DNA of 64,000 nucleotides, from contig NZ_PUFH01000005.1 of NCBI RefSeq assembly GCF_004354555.1, positions 434,001 to 498,000 of the forward strand, written 5' to 3'. Numbering within the stretch: position 1 is the stretch's first letter; each line of letters begins with the position of its first letter. The position numbers were made by a program, and so were the translations under genes. Shown piece after piece: positions 194 through 17,061 of this stretch. The notes below the pieces were generated by a model, which saw nothing but the letters and a program-made list of their open reading frames with translations, was not told the DNA's origin and made no database searches. The stretch comes from Leuconostoc citreum (lineage in GTDB: Bacteria; Bacillota; Bacilli; Lactobacillales; Lactobacillaceae).

Positions 194-1189
194 TTATTCT
201 TCTATCACCGCACGAATGCCATTAACTTTCTGACTCAGTTTGGCAAATTGATCAGGTGTTAACGCCTGTGCGCCATCAACGAATGCATGCACTGGATCAT
301 CGTGTATTTCTGTCATGAGTCCTTGCGCACCAGCAGCCACAGCGGCCAATGCTAGTGGTGTGACAAACTTTGCAACGCCAGCAGCATGTGATGCATCAGC
401 AATAACTGGAAAATGAGTTAAACTTTGCAGCACTGGTATGGCTGACACGTCGATAGTATTTCTAGTGTACTTGTTGTCATAAGTACGAATACCGCGCTCC
501 ATTAAAATAATTTGATTATTACCACCAGCTACAATGTATTCAGCAGCATTTAATAGGTCGTCTATTGTTGCTGACATGCCTCGTTTTAAGACCACTGGTT
601 TGCGTTTTTGTCCAAGTGCTTTTAGTAAAGCAAAGTTTTGCATATTACGTGTGCCAACTTGAAAAATATCTGTGTATTCGGCAACTAAATCGACATCTTT
701 GGTATCTAGTATTTCTGTTACCATATCCATTCCTAAAGCATCAGCTGCCGCACGATGAGCCTTTAAGCCCGCTTCACCATTCCCCTGGAATGAATAAGGC
801 GACGTTCTTGGCTTAAAAGCACCACCACGTAAAACAGTTGCACCGGCTGCTTTCACAGCTCTTCCCATCTCAAGCACGTGTGCTGCACTTTCAATGGCAT
901 CTGGTCCTGCCATGAATACAAAATGTTTACCACCAATCATACTGTGCTTCGTTTTAATGATGGTGTCTTCTGGATGAAAATCTCGTGATGATGCGATAGC
1001 TGTATGGTGATTGGTAATCACTTCTAAAATATCATTTTTTAAATCGTCTAACGTTGCTTCAGGTAAAATCTTAACACCAGCCAACGCCACCCGATTATGA
1101 TGTACAAAAACAGGTTTGATGGGATTATTTGTGTCAAGTTTCTGTGCGATTCTATGAGCTGTATCATTGTCTTTAGTTACTAATATCAT
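194..1189 (-). CDS. aroF: DAHP synthase (3-deoxy-7-phosphoheptulonate synthase), type I beta
   Basis: Condenses phosphoenolpyruvate and erythrose 4-phosphate to DAHP, the first shikimate-pathway step. The 331 residues show an N-terminal ferredoxin-like regulatory domain (about 1-75) and a TIM-barrel catalytic domain with FKPRTSPYSFQG (125-136) and VGTRNMQN. There is no fused chorismate mutase. Aligned by motif to the Thermotoga enzyme, three metal ligands remain (His268 in ADASHAAG, Glu294, Asp305). The invariant Cys of the AGPC motif is Asp97 here (AGPDAIES, codon GAT). The start overlaps the end of aroE by 17 bases, suggesting translational coupling. The family assignment is firm; metal use may be unusual. 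Confidence 0.93.
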   Translation of the reverse strand: MILVTKDNDTAHRIAQKLDTNNPIKPVFVHHNRVALAGVKILPEATLDDLKNDILEVITNHHTAIASSRDFHPEDTIIKTKHSMIGGKHFVFMAGPDAIESAAHVLEMGRAVKAAGATVLRGGAFKPRTSPYSFQGNGEAGLKAHRAAADALGMDMVTEILDTKDVDLVAEYTDIFQVGTRNMQNFALLKALGQKRKPVVLKRGMSATIDDLLNAAEYIVAGGNNQIILMERGIRTYDNKYTRNTIDVSAIPVLQSLTHFPVIADASHAAGVAKFVTPLALAAVAAGAQGLMTEIHDDPVHAFVDGAQALTPDQFAKLSQKVNGIRAVIEE

Positions 1190-2018
1190 TATCTTTTCCT
1201 CTTACTGCATTTGCCATTAATTGACGGTCTGCCGGTTGATTAAACCAAAATTCGAAGCTTAGTGCGCCTTGGTTAATTAACATCGACAGGCCATTTTGTA
1301 TTAAAAGTTGTTGTTTTTGTGCGGTCTTAAGCAGACCAGTTTGCTGATTGCGATAAATCATATCCACAACCAATGCATGTTGTGGTAATAGACTAATTTG
1401 ATAGTCTGTAAGTAGTGTTCTGGCATCATTCATCCCAACGGTTGTGGCATTGATTAGCATGTCGGCATTGACTAACGCGTCAGTCAACGCCTGATTGTCA
1501 GCTAAATCTGATAACTGACCAATACCTTGGCTTAGGTAAGCAACTTGTGTCTCTCGTTGCGACCAATCAGTGTGTGAACGATTAAAAACTGCTAAATGAC
1601 GTACACCATAATGATGTGCTGTAGCAATAACCGATTTAGCAGCCCCACCGTTACCAAGTATGACAACATGTTCATGTGGTTGATGCGGATTAATACTTTG
1701 CCAAAAACCATCACCGTCTGTTGATGTACCTACCAAACGGCCATTAATGTTTTTAACTGTGTTAACAGCCTGTAATCGTTGCGCTAAAGGCGTCAATTCA
1801 TCTAAAAATGGTACAATAGCTGATTTAAATGGCGTCGATACGTTAAAGCCACCCACATGCAAGGCACGCAAACCCAAAACTGCTGATTCTAAATCGCTGG
1901 GTATAATATCAAAACTATGATAATGACCGTTAATTTGTCGTGCTATCATCATCTCATTCTGCATGATAGGTGATAACGAGTGTGCTGCTGGGTGAGCAAT
2001 TAAGCCATATAAAGTCAT
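1173..2018 (-). CDS. aroE: shikimate dehydrogenase
   Basis: Reduces 3-dehydroshikimate to shikimate with NADPH. The 281-residue length is normal. Visible motifs are the substrate-binding SLSP (14-17), GFNVSTPFK with catalytic Lys65, AVNTV (84-88), the STDGDG motif with catalytic Asp101, and the nucleotide-binding GNGGAAKS. The family usually has Asn before TDG; here it is Ser99, which may be a lineage variant. It starts 3 bases after the tkt stop and overlaps aroF at its end, so it is clearly part of the aromatic operon. AroE rather than quinate dehydrogenase is favoured by the operon context. Confidence 0.92.
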   Translation of the reverse strand: MTLYGLIAHPAAHSLSPIMQNEMMIARQINGHYHSFDIIPSDLESAVLGLRALHVGGFNVSTPFKSAIVPFLDELTPLAQRLQAVNTVKNINGRLVGTSTDGDGFWQSINPHQPHEHVVILGNGGAAKSVIATAHHYGVRHLAVFNRSHTDWSQRETQVAYLSQGIGQLSDLADNQALTDALVNADMLINATTVGMNDARTLLTDYQISLLPQHALVVDMIYRNQQTGLLKTAQKQQLLIQNGLSMLINQGALSFEFWFNQPADRQLMANAVRGKDNDISN

Positions 2019-2021
2019 GCG

Positions 2022-3959
2022 TTATTTCTCCAAATGTTGATTAATTTTAGCAACAATACAACTGGTGGTCATGCCGAAAGTATCTAATAGTGTCTGTGGC
2101 TTGGCACTTAAGCCAAACTCATCAATACCGATGACTAGACCATTATCACCTGCTACGGCTTGCCATCCCAGCGTTGTGCCTGCCTCTATTATCACATTTT
2201 TCGCACCATCTTTGGGTATGATTTCTGCTTTACTATCTGAACTTTGAGCTAAAAAGCGAGTCATATTAGGCATAGAAATGACACGATTAGTTTGCTGTAG
2301 TTGTTGACTAACTGCCAAAGCTAATTGTACTTCAGACCCAGAAGCGATGATATTGACCACAGGACTTTCATGTGCCACTATTTGTGTCGCTCCATGTTGA
2401 ATGGCTAATTGTCCCGATAATTTATCGCCTTGTGTGCCAATCACACCGCGACTCAGAATCAATACTGTTGGTCGCTTTTTCGATGATAGAGCAAATTGCC
2501 AGGCGGAAGCAATTTCTTCTGCTGTACCAGGCCGCAAGACATCAACGCCTGGTATTAATCGCAACCCCATTAACTGTTCTATTGGTTGGTGTGTCGGGCC
2601 ATCCTCACCTACGGTAAGACTATCATGCGTAAAAACGTAAATCACTGGTAACTTCTGTAAAGCACTTAAACGAATAGCTGCTTTCATATAATCCGAAAAA
2701 GCTAAGAATGTTGCTCCAAATATTTTTGTGTCACCGTGTAGTGCAATACCATTCATAATACTGCCCATACCAAATTCTCGGACACCAAAAGCAATGTTAC
2801 GTTCCGTGCGATTATCAGGTGAAAATAAACCAGAACCAACTATCTCGGCTTGCGTGGAAGCAACTAAATCAGCCGATCCACCCCATATCTGGGGCATTTG
2901 TTTTGCAAACTGTTGTAAAACGTGACCCGCTATTTGTCGTCCAGGGCGTGACTTGATATGTTCTGATAGATTTGGTAATTCTAACGGGATCTCGGCCATC
3001 TGCTGCTTATAAGCTATCAACTCAGCTTTCCTTGGGACAGGCATCGTAGACAAACGGTGTTTAATACGTGTACGTATTGAAGACAAGATATTTTCATCTA
3101 ATGTAAATCGTGTCATTTGCACATCAAGTACAGCTGATAAATCCTCTAACTGTTTGGCTGTCAAAGGCGTGCCATGCGCTCTGTGACTATTTTCAAATGG
3201 TCCATGAATGCCAATAATATTCTTAACAGCAATCAACGTTGGTTCGGGTGATAACTTGGCATTTTCAATCGCATCGTGAATCATGCTAATATCATTACCA
3301 TCAGCAACATGGCGTATATCCCAGCCGTAGCTTTCAAAACGTTGTAGTTGATTTGATGTATCCGAACGTGATTTCGAACCATCTAACGTGACGTCATTAT
3401 CATCGTATAACACAATCAGTTTAGATAATTGTTGTTGACCTGCGAGACTAGCTACTTCATGACTAACCCCCTCCATTAAATCACCATCACCAACTAATGC
3501 GAATGTTAAATGATTAATAACGCTAGGAAATAATGCATGCTGTCGTGCCTCTGCCATGGCCATACCAACAGCCATGCCTAACCCCTGCCCCAACGGCCCT
3601 GTCGTCGCTTCAACGCCAGGTGTTACCCCTTTTTCTGGATGACCGGGTGTTTTCGAATGCAGGGTACGAAATTGTGATAAATCAGATGGCTTAATATCAA
3701 AACCAGCAGCATATAGCGTAGCGTATAATAAAGCCGCGCCATGACCAGCAGACAAAACAAAGCGGTCACGGTTGAGCATTCCCGGATCTTGCGGATTAAT
3801 ACGCATTTGATTAGCATATAATTCATATAATATGGGTGCAGCACCTAATACAATACCAGGATGACCAGATCCAGCTTCGGTAATCATTTGATTTGCTAAA
3901 ACACGTAAATGATTCACATGTTTCAAGTCAGTCTCAGTCGTAGTTAATAATTCACTCAT
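2022..3959 (-). CDS. tkt: transketolase
   Basis: Thiamine-diphosphate enzyme that moves two-carbon units between sugar phosphates. In a phosphoketolase-type lactic acid bacterium it can supply erythrose 4-phosphate and ribose 5-phosphate. The 645 residues contain GSGHPG near the N terminus, the ThDP motif GDGDLMEG, the Pyr-domain REFGMGSIMNG segment and DSLTVGEDGPTHQP. It is the first gene after the leader at 3966-4242, with GGAGG directly after the second hairpin's U tract, and aroE follows after 3 bases. Its leading position in an aro operon suggests a dedicated role in supplying erythrose 4-phosphate to DAHP synthase. A second housekeeping tkt elsewhere cannot be excluded. Confidence 0.93.
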   Translation of the reverse strand: MSELLTTTETDLKHVNHLRVLANQMITEAGSGHPGIVLGAAPILYELYANQMRINPQDPGMLNRDRFVLSAGHGAALLYATLYAAGFDIKPSDLSQFRTLHSKTPGHPEKGVTPGVEATTGPLGQGLGMAVGMAMAEARQHALFPSVINHLTFALVGDGDLMEGVSHEVASLAGQQQLSKLIVLYDDNDVTLDGSKSRSDTSNQLQRFESYGWDIRHVADGNDISMIHDAIENAKLSPEPTLIAVKNIIGIHGPFENSHRAHGTPLTAKQLEDLSAVLDVQMTRFTLDENILSSIRTRIKHRLSTMPVPRKAELIAYKQQMAEIPLELPNLSEHIKSRPGRQIAGHVLQQFAKQMPQIWGGSADLVASTQAEIVGSGLFSPDNRTERNIAFGVREFGMGSIMNGIALHGDTKIFGATFLAFSDYMKAAIRLSALQKLPVIYVFTHDSLTVGEDGPTHQPIEQLMGLRLIPGVDVLRPGTAEEIASAWQFALSSKKRPTVLILSRGVIGTQGDKLSGQLAIQHGATQIVAHESPVVNIIASGSEVQLALAVSQQLQQTNRVISMPNMTRFLAQSSDSKAEIIPKDGAKNVIIEAGTTLGWQAVAGDNGLVIGIDEFGLSAKPQTLLDTFGMTTSCIVAKINQHLEK

Positions 3960-3970
3960 ACTATTCCTCC

Positions 3971-4010
3971 AAAAAAATCGTACTAGGTGCAGTTCACCTA
4001 GTACGATTTT
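3971..4010 (-). terminator. second leader terminator, abutting the tkt ribosome site
   Basis: A perfect 16-bp stem (arms 3974-3989 and 3995-4010, loop 3990-3994) followed on the minus-strand RNA by seven U residues that run directly into the GGAGG of tkt (3970-3966). It can act as an intrinsic terminator, and as a structure next to the ribosome site. Being inside the leader, it probably has to be bypassed for tkt expression. Confidence 0.7.
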
Positions 4011-4066: not shown

Positions 4067-4131
4067 TCAGCCTCGAAAAGCTTCTGGTCGCTAAGTGCGT
4101 CGTATACCGACGCACTTAACATGCGACGGTT

Positions 4132-4185
4132 CTACATAAACCAGAAGTAATAATAACGATTGCTTTTCAAGATTGATGTGTTCAT
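4132..4185 (-). CDS. aromatic-rich leader peptide of the tkt-aro operon
   Basis: A 17-residue reading frame, MNTSILKSNRYYYFWFM, followed by TAG. Six consecutive aromatic codons (TAT TAT TAC TTC TGG TTT) sit just before the stop. The ATG lies about 21 bases after the predicted transcription start and is preceded by a purine-rich ATGAGAAAAATT with only a weak Shine-Dalgarno match. The peptide is far too short to be an ordinary protein. Its Tyr/Phe/Trp content matches the end products of the downstream shikimate genes, as in classical trp or phe leaders. Ribosome stalling on these codons would decide which leader RNA fold forms. Confidence 0.85.
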   Translation of the reverse strand: MNTSILKSNRYYYFWFM

Positions 4186-4205
4186 AATTTTTCTCATTTC
4201 TGTTA

Positions 4206-4242
4206 ATGTTTATATCATATAATGATTAATTAGAATTGTCAA
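4206..4242 (-). promoter_or_regulatory. promoter of the leader-tkt-aro operon
   Basis: Consensus TTGACA (4242-4237), a 17-base spacer and TATGAT (4219-4214) on the minus strand. Transcription should start near 4206-4208, placing the whole leader peptide and both hairpins in the 5' untranslated RNA. It lies downstream of the ECF S-component gene, which separates the two transcription units. Confidence 0.85.
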
Positions 4243-16913: not shown

Positions 16914-16931
16914 CTTAACTTTCTTTTTTAA

Positions 16932-17061
16932 CTTCTTTATACCCGACTTTACGGTCGGCTCTGGAATTTGACCAGATCAGCTGTTTGCACAGGTCGCGGG
17001 CTTACCATGTTCAACATGTCTCACCGCCGGTTGGGAATTACACCCGACCCTGAAGTAATAT
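16932..17061 (-). ncRNA. FMN riboswitch (RFN element)
   Basis: The minus strand carries the RFN core in order: CTTCAGGGTCGGGTG, AATTCCCAACCGGCGGT, AGCCCGCGA, CTGATCTGGTCAAATTCCAG, AGCCGAC and the closing AAGAAG. These are the highly conserved segments of the six-stem FMN aptamer. FMN binding would favour termination ahead of ribU. Confidence 0.95.

Follow-up and report, generated by a model that had tools for sequence, protein, structure and literature searches.

Leader locus and downstream gene cluster

The window analysed here is a stretch of 64,000 nucleotides from Leuconostoc citreum, and positions given without a locus name refer to it. On its minus strand, a short leader region precedes genes of the shikimate pathway. 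The whole element lies on this strand between an ECF-type transporter gene and tkt. The leader region and the first genes behind it contain the following features:

4214-4242, minus strand: promoter TTGACA-17-TATGAT from the promoter scan (TTGACA 4242-4237, 17 nt, TATGAT 4219-4214)
4132-4185, minus strand: leader open reading frame MNTSILKSNRYYYFWFM, 17 codons (ATG 4185, aromatic codons 4155-4138, TAG stop 4134-4132)
3966-3970, minus strand: Shine-Dalgarno sequence GGAGG of tkt, abutting the U tract of terminator T2
2022-3959, minus strand: tkt, transketolase
1173-2018, minus strand: aroE, shikimate dehydrogenase
194-1189, minus strand: aroF, DAHP synthase (TIGR01361)

A sequence-only reading of this DNA had named a tkt-aroE-aroF-aroB operon without giving its strand. 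Shikimate genes do lie downstream, but the cluster is longer and continues to aroD. It runs past the window start, where aroF is followed by aroB-aroC-aroA-tyrA-aroK/CM-orf-aroD, and totals nine identified genes (tkt-aroE-aroF-aroB-aroC-aroA-tyrA-aroK/CM-aroD) and one ORF without a family match. This 184-amino-acid ORF (L168 5346-5900, minus strand) lies between aroK/CM and aroD and matched no model in NCBIfam (cut 1e-30) or Pfam (1e-3). The fusion protein encoded at L168 5897-6700, also on the minus strand, joins a shikimate kinase to a type II chorismate mutase domain. From their shared strand and spacing, the genes of the cluster probably form one transcript.

The same reading had reported a consensus promoter and a 17-codon frame with a run of aromatic codons, and both were found. 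The promoter has 11 of 12 consensus matches in the promoter scan, and its TTGACA is kept in 21 of 21 aligned leader loci. The match is weak on its own, since the scan of the leader region returned 6 promoter-like sites against 5.8 in shuffles. The frame ends in Tyr-Tyr-Tyr-Phe-Trp-Phe-Met-stop. A second in-frame ATG is located upstream of its start, at 4197, and such a start occurs in only 7 of the 21 loci. Judged by eye, the Leuconostoc leader has a weak Shine-Dalgarno sequence. In the entire genome of the organism, the 18-base pattern TWYTWYTWYTTYTGGTTY is found a single time.

Structure of the leader RNA

Behind the leader frame come a long compound hairpin and two terminators, first T1 and then T2, with the tkt Shine-Dalgarno sequence last. 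The leader RNA has a fold of -94 kcal/mol compared with a shuffle mean of -52.4 kcal/mol (z -10.2), and none of 200 shuffles reached this value. The segments of the RNA are as follows:

4164-4171, minus strand: segment C (CUUGAAAA), within the ORF; OFF-state partner C' at 4079-4072
4142-4147, minus strand: segment A (CUUCUG), in the Tyr3-Phe4-Trp5 codons; partner A' at 4086-4081
4107-4127, minus strand: segment B1, 5' arm of the protector hairpin
4087-4102, minus strand: segment B2, 3' arm of the protector hairpin, also the 5' strand of antiterminator 1
4072-4086, minus strand: segments A' and C', complementary to leader codons
4040-4066, minus strand: terminator T1 (5' arm 4066-4056, 3' arm 4050-4040, U-rich tract 4039-4031)
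3977-4007, minus strand: terminator T2 (5' arm 4007-3995, 3' arm 3989-3977, U tract to 3971)

T1 was called by the terminator scan, and T2 was absent from its matches. U-rich tracts follow both terminators in the aligned Leuconostoc-type rows and are weaker in a few of them. Segments A and C both lie inside the coding frame, and a ribosome positioned on them would therefore block them. B1 can also form a stem by itself (CCGUCGC:GCGUCGG, containing a U.U mismatch). In antiterminator 1, CACUUAGCGAC at 4097-4087 pairs with 4066-4056, the 5' arm of T1. In antiterminator 2, the 5' arm of T2 is the 3' strand and pairs with 4050-4042.

Of the 19 Leuconostoc genomes, 18 contain the element according to a DNA search; the contig of the remaining one, G112 (L. 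falkenbergense), begins inside tkt and so does not reach the leader region. Leuconostoc lactis KCTC 3528 (DSM 20202) carries the element. The 21 loci extracted belong to three genera (18 from Leuconostoc, two from g7 and one from g8). All 21 frames end in Y[YF]YFWF-x-stop, where x is Met in 19 frames; L008 has Ile in this place and L011 has Thr. The leader of L029 starts with GTG.

Alignment A1 contains 20 of these rows, L028 having been left out (L005 and L028 are near-identical). The OFF helices C:C', A:A', B1:B2, T1 and T2 are paired in 95.7% of the cells of A1, versus 32-43% for slid helix versions. Eighteen pairs changed on both sides compared with 6.9 in shuffles, a number reached by 0 of 500 shuffles. 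Most of these changes are in T2 (helix 7, 11 of 18), followed by T1 (helix 6, three), C:C' (helices 1 and 2, with 96% and 95% of cells paired; two) and B1:B2 (two). The A:A' helix (helix 3) is paired in 99% of cells, with zero pairs changed on both sides. For the ON pairs, too little variation is present within Leuconostoc to reveal covariation: one pair changed on both sides versus 0.4 in shuffles (179 of 500 reached this), and the covariation score equalled that of the shuffles. The U.U and C.A positions among the ON pairs are unpaired in 20 of 20 and 19 of 20 rows respectively. Relatives had been expected to share a conserved aromatic run with covarying stems; the run and the OFF stems agree with this, but the ON stems in Leuconostoc offer just the one two-sided pair.

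Other regulators at the site

The sequence-only reading had seen neither a T-box nor TRAP regulation, and this stands. The T-box covariance model (RF00230) has no match at the leader. Elsewhere, the genome contains 20 T-box matches, three of which are over the cut-off, and thrS, pheS and valS are among the ten downstream frames that were looked up. Over 248 nt, the leader includes 13 triplets of the form (G/T)AG. Regulation by TRAP was rejected because the TRAP gene (PF02081) is missing from the genome (the B. subtilis control was positive). Known riboswitches have no match at the leader site either. At gathering level, no Rfam family matches the window leader, RF02863 included. An E-value search at the leader returned nine matches, all to miRNA and snoRNA families and far under gathering scores, which are taken as chance. 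The sole gathering-level Rfam match in the window is an FMN riboswitch at 16926-17061 on the minus strand.

Leaders in other Lactobacillales

A DAHP synthase of the aroF type is encoded in 149 of 397 Lactobacillaceae genomes, representing 26 of 40 genera. Beyond the Leuconostoc-type loci, 60 upstream regions from 21 genera of Lactobacillaceae were studied. The loci studied were picked by hand from listings with at least one per genus, so the sample is non-random, and some of the Leuconostoc-type and other Lactobacillaceae loci share a genome, so the rows are partly non-independent. By reading, aromatic leaders were found at 34 of the 60 loci, in 15 of the 21 genera; examples are MKKVNRKINRFYYYWFR, MQQFNNSNLNSYYYYWFRK, MKLSNSNNTLNNISSSWYYYFINE and MRQFTNNLRNYYWFYI. 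In other Lactobacillales families, 34 of 40 loci have an aromatic leader by reading. Twenty-two of these 34 are of the ...NNYYFSYFR type; leaders ending in YYFSYFR contain Tyr and Phe codons without a Trp codon. The order of residues varies between genera (FYYYWF, YYYYWF, WYYYF, YYWFY, YYFSYFR, FSYYYYQPR), as do the nucleotides, and the aromatic content is constant. The first gene after the leader also varies and may be tkt, aroE or aroF. In Companilactobacillus, it is a frame that we take to encode chorismate synthase.

Counts by reading exceed those of a strict automatic census, which recovered leaders at 31 of the 40 loci outside Lactobacillaceae and at 20 of the 60 other Lactobacillaceae loci (L116 being doubtful). 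Outside Lactobacillaceae, the census returned 34 candidates in 26.0 kb of upstream zone versus 7 in 85.6 strand-kb elsewhere; for other Lactobacillaceae, the corresponding values were 20 in 39.6 kb versus 11 in 193.4 elsewhere. Both upstream densities clearly exceed the background, which was taken from these same loci. Doubtful frames at L119, L157, L163 and L167 were scored as leaderless. No clear leader was seen at 26 of the 60 other Lactobacillaceae loci (L108-L124, L130, L131, L141-L143, L157, L163, L165 and L167) or at 6 of the 40 loci of other families (L170, L171, L197, L198, L199 and L201). An Rfam scan at 13 of the 26 leaderless loci detected no T-box and just two THF riboswitches. 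L108-L124 represent all 17 loci fetched from genus g18, in which aroF is present, mostly behind aroE. By contrast, the g18 genome G244 (locus L045 by coordinates) has a Leuconostoc-like leader, MSYLMKKTTWKSNSYFYFWFM. Loss, transfer or misbinning could account for this contrast.

Several loci have features of their own. L166 has two leaders ending in TRYYWFS, approximately 3.6 kb and 2.5 kb upstream of aroF. One precedes aroE and the other tkt, which hints that the operon was split and its attenuator duplicated. In family f5, the leaders of L193, L196 and L209 contain the tail KSDFCCTQIG (KSDLCCTQIG in L193) after the aromatic run, and this tail may have a role of its own. L186 and L192 have long leader frames with a common GFYFSAGYF after the aromatic stretch. 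At L137 (8113-8350, minus strand) and L140 (8424-8671, minus strand), a T-box encoded on the other strand lies upstream of the aromatic leader, at a distance of a few hundred bases. The Rfam trpB ncRNA motif (RF04312) occurs approximately 3 kb from the aro leader at L172, L184 and L185.

Alternative pairings between neighbouring hairpins

Leaders that were read through show one layout: hairpins and a terminator come after the frame, and the 3' arm of one hairpin complements the 5' arm of its successor. Examples of such neighbouring arms are CACUUAGCGAC with GUCACUAAGUG in Leuconostoc, CUGUGCGACC with GGUCACACAG in further leaders, CAUUCGAU with AUCGAGUG in Companilactobacillus and AUCUAUGAUGGCU with AGCCACAUAGAU in other families. 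Folding covered part of the leaders of families f5 and f7, and the relay analysis covered L200 among them. The middle hairpin of Companilactobacillus has no U tract, so its pairing with the first makes sense only as a hand-on of the signal to the last.

Covariation of the ON helices inside Leuconostoc being uninformative, arms were swapped across genera. With arms picked by hand in 24 author-chosen leaders, all from Lactobacillaceae, matched arms scored -13.6 at the first junction versus -9.1 when swapped, and -15.1 versus -9.3 at the second (p<=5e-5 each); at either junction, 0 of 20,000 permutations reached the observed sum. The non-adjacent control gave -7.3 versus -7.6 (p=0.72). Some leaders fitted poorly: the partner of L159 ranked 16 of 24 for antiterminator 1, that of L149 ranked 17 of 24 for antiterminator 2, and L155 was poor at the second junction.

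Hand-picked arms risk selection, and arms chosen by script were therefore added. The 61 leaders entered include 21 of the 34 other-family leaders (L186-L196, L208 and L209 were left out). Forty-two were kept, with arms assigned by script and without one-by-one inspection; of the 19 dropped, 18 had no T2 recognized and one had too few hairpins. Matched arms again scored better than swapped ones, at -13.5 versus -9.2 for the first junction and -11.5 versus -7.4 for the second (p<=5e-5 each). The non-adjacent control over the 42 leaders showed a weak signal (-7.3 versus -6.7, p=0.04), and a second control gave p=0.11 for all leaders and p=0.011 for the Lactobacillaceae subset. The claim of mutually exclusive pairings with terminators is thus upheld by the alternatives B2 with the T1 5' arm and T1 3' arm with the T2 5' arm, which coevolve across genera.

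A masked-ribosome model was applied to 29 leaders, using nascent RNA that stops short of the 3' arm of T1. For antiterminator 1, an index was defined as expected pairs divided by eight; it can exceed 1. This index was 0.09 in the absence of a ribosome, averaged 0.39 over the aromatic codons and was 0.15 with the ribosome at the stop codon. At the best aromatic codon it was 0.60, a maximum over several positions and hence biased upwards. The index was above 0.5 in 2 of 29 leaders with no ribosome, in 14 at the best aromatic codon and in 4 at the stop codon, and never reached 0.5 at any aromatic codon in 15 of the 29. For the 21 Leuconostoc-type loci, the mean index rose from 0.01 to at most 0.20. 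For the window leader at full length, the minimum-energy fold retains T1 and T2 whether the masked ribosome sits on a codon from Tyr1 to Met7 or on the stop. Since both terminators persist in these folds, any switch must be kinetic. The picture from modelling is mixed: the modelled direction agrees with attenuation, but the energies are no proof of it.

The layout had been likened to the proteobacterial trp and phe operons, and this comparison has to be corrected. A simple trp-like model, with the stalled ribosome on B1, was dropped because by footprint-length reasoning a ribosome at the Tyr codons falls short of B1. In place of four segments there is a longer chain of hairpins, nearer to the his leader.

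The Rfam family RF02863

The search for an existing Rfam family, proposed along with the original reading, had a divided outcome: none matches the window leader, but RF02863 ('Enterococcus sRNA 2410') matches leaders in other families. Gathering-level matches were obtained at 12 of 20 loci of other families and, in another scan, at 1 of 10 loci (L184 4798-4989). In 12 of the 13 hit loci, the leader stop codon ends 16 nt into the match according to a script, which missed the leader of L182. The first bases of the RF02863 model read as the last leader codons. In Enterococcus faecium, sRNA_2410 is a 195-nt RNA with two transcripts on Northern blots, according to excerpts of PMC5593968. From name and length, that paper is probably the source of RF02863, and the two bands would fit a leader terminated at T1 and at T2. 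Instead of a trans-acting sRNA, RF02863 appears to represent the aro leader after termination. It seems to be the same element in other families, apparently the enterococci included, with matches that begin in the last leader codons, but it is filed as an sRNA, and the excerpts of PMC5593968 mention neither the frame nor attenuation.

Proposed mechanism and alternative explanations

The locus contains a short frame with a run of codons for the pathway products, an intrinsic terminator before the first gene and an antiterminator supported by cross-genus comparison, the marks of an attenuator. With high confidence, the element is regarded as a transcription attenuator of the ribosome-mediated kind, its signal being the supply of charged Tyr-, Phe- and Trp-tRNA. 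When charged tRNA is ample, the ribosome would clear the leader, A:A', C:C' and B1:B2 would pair, T1 and T2 would form, and transcription would end before tkt. A ribosome stalled in the aromatic run would cover A, and at early codons also C, leaving A' and C' free. B1 would then fold on itself and B2 would pair with the 5' arm of T1 as antiterminator 1. T1, its 5' arm now taken up, would leave its 3' arm available to the 5' arm of T2, and the two would form antiterminator 2. With both antiterminators formed, the polymerase would enter the shikimate genes. The sequences themselves show the parts, the conserved aromatic codons, the helices of the OFF state and alternative pairings that coevolve; from these we infer translation, stalling, the direction of control and the kinetics. 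Very probably, translation of the leader decides whether the shikimate genes are read.

In TnaC, the peptide itself jams the ribosome. A similar arrest, in which the nascent peptide, perhaps with a free aromatic amino acid, stops the ribosome and sets the RNA fold, could explain why Y[YF]YFWF is fixed but for one Tyr/Phe exchange in the 21 Leuconostoc-type loci, and would give a place to the tail after the aromatic run in the three f5 leaders. This is nevertheless considered unlikely. Across genera, the order of residues shifts and the aromatic content stays, which fits codon sensing and rules out a fixed stalling-peptide motif, and a biosynthetic operon is expected to be on when its amino acid is scarce. 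Translational control is given slightly less credence still. Here T2 would hide the Shine-Dalgarno sequence of tkt and stalling would expose the ribosome binding site, as might be suspected from the T2 U tract abutting GGAGG; yet T1 and T2 bear U-rich tracts in the aligned Leuconostoc-type rows, if weaker in a few, and T2 is farther from the gene in several other genera. Such control may act on top of termination, not instead of it.

Less probable than either is that the leader acts in trans as a small RNA, which the Rfam name sRNA_2410 suggests, and that the frame is incidental. Rfam gives RF02863 the type of an sRNA gene, and blots show an RNA of this name, but in all 13 hit loci the match lies upstream of the shikimate genes and has an aromatic frame with it, and terminator-like hairpins occur in those hit loci that were folded. 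On balance, though with less assurance than for the attenuator itself, the leaders probably form one ancestral attenuator class, found in six Lactobacillales families (relay tested in five). In this class, one aromatic codon run would pass a stall signal down three re-pairing hairpins, the sequence would drift with the relay kept, and the enterococcal 'sRNA' would be its terminated product.

Relation to known leader peptides and significance

The his operon leader of Escherichia coli and Salmonella is described by a six-segment model. Like the leaders studied here, it has a codon run and a chain of hairpins with alternative neighbour pairings and a terminator at the end; it responds to a single amino acid, belongs to a different phylum and is likened here by layout, not by sequence. 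Its alternative structures are attributed to Johnston 1980 in excerpts of PMC3896937. In Corynebacterium glutamicum, the AroR leader peptide before the aroF operon is short, contains Phe-Tyr-Phe and acts by ribosome-mediated attenuation (Neshat 2014, as cited in PMC11802643). AroR is thus also an aromatic leader peptide before a DAHP synthase operon, but it belongs to Actinobacteria and is reported to respond to Phe and not to Tyr, and the excerpts of PMC11802643 name no Trp and describe no relay. In Acholeplasma, the uORFC-13-1 motif upstream of aroF has 24 representatives and a proposed function (PMC8632094, in excerpt). It resembles the present leaders in having a uORF with at least one Phe codon beside a terminator and before aroF; it differs in that Phe alone is involved, and the likeness is by description, not by structure. 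Excerpts of further papers report His leader peptides in Firmicutes (PMC2965389; PMC9413887, section 8) and a Leu-rich ilvD leader in Staphylococcus aureus (PMC5794164), which share leader-peptide attenuation but concern other amino acids and operons.

The kind of regulator is already known, because aroF leaders in C. glutamicum and Acholeplasma and His and Leu leaders in Firmicutes are on record. The earlier suggestion of an undescribed regulator has therefore to be narrowed: aroF leader peptides are known or proposed and RF02863 is in Rfam, but a three-amino-acid, order-wide relay form was not found in the literature search. That search, which was full-text and mostly outside subscription papers, also returned no description of an aromatic leader peptide in Lactobacillales.

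If the proposed reading is true, the common aromatic pathway in lactic acid bacteria and their relatives is controlled by a leader peptide, in a genome rich in T-boxes, and an annotated sRNA becomes a cis-regulator. The leaders would then provide a natural collection of relay attenuators, dozens in number and diverged from one another, for probing how such chains work, and a handle on the supply of aromatic amino acids in food bacteria.
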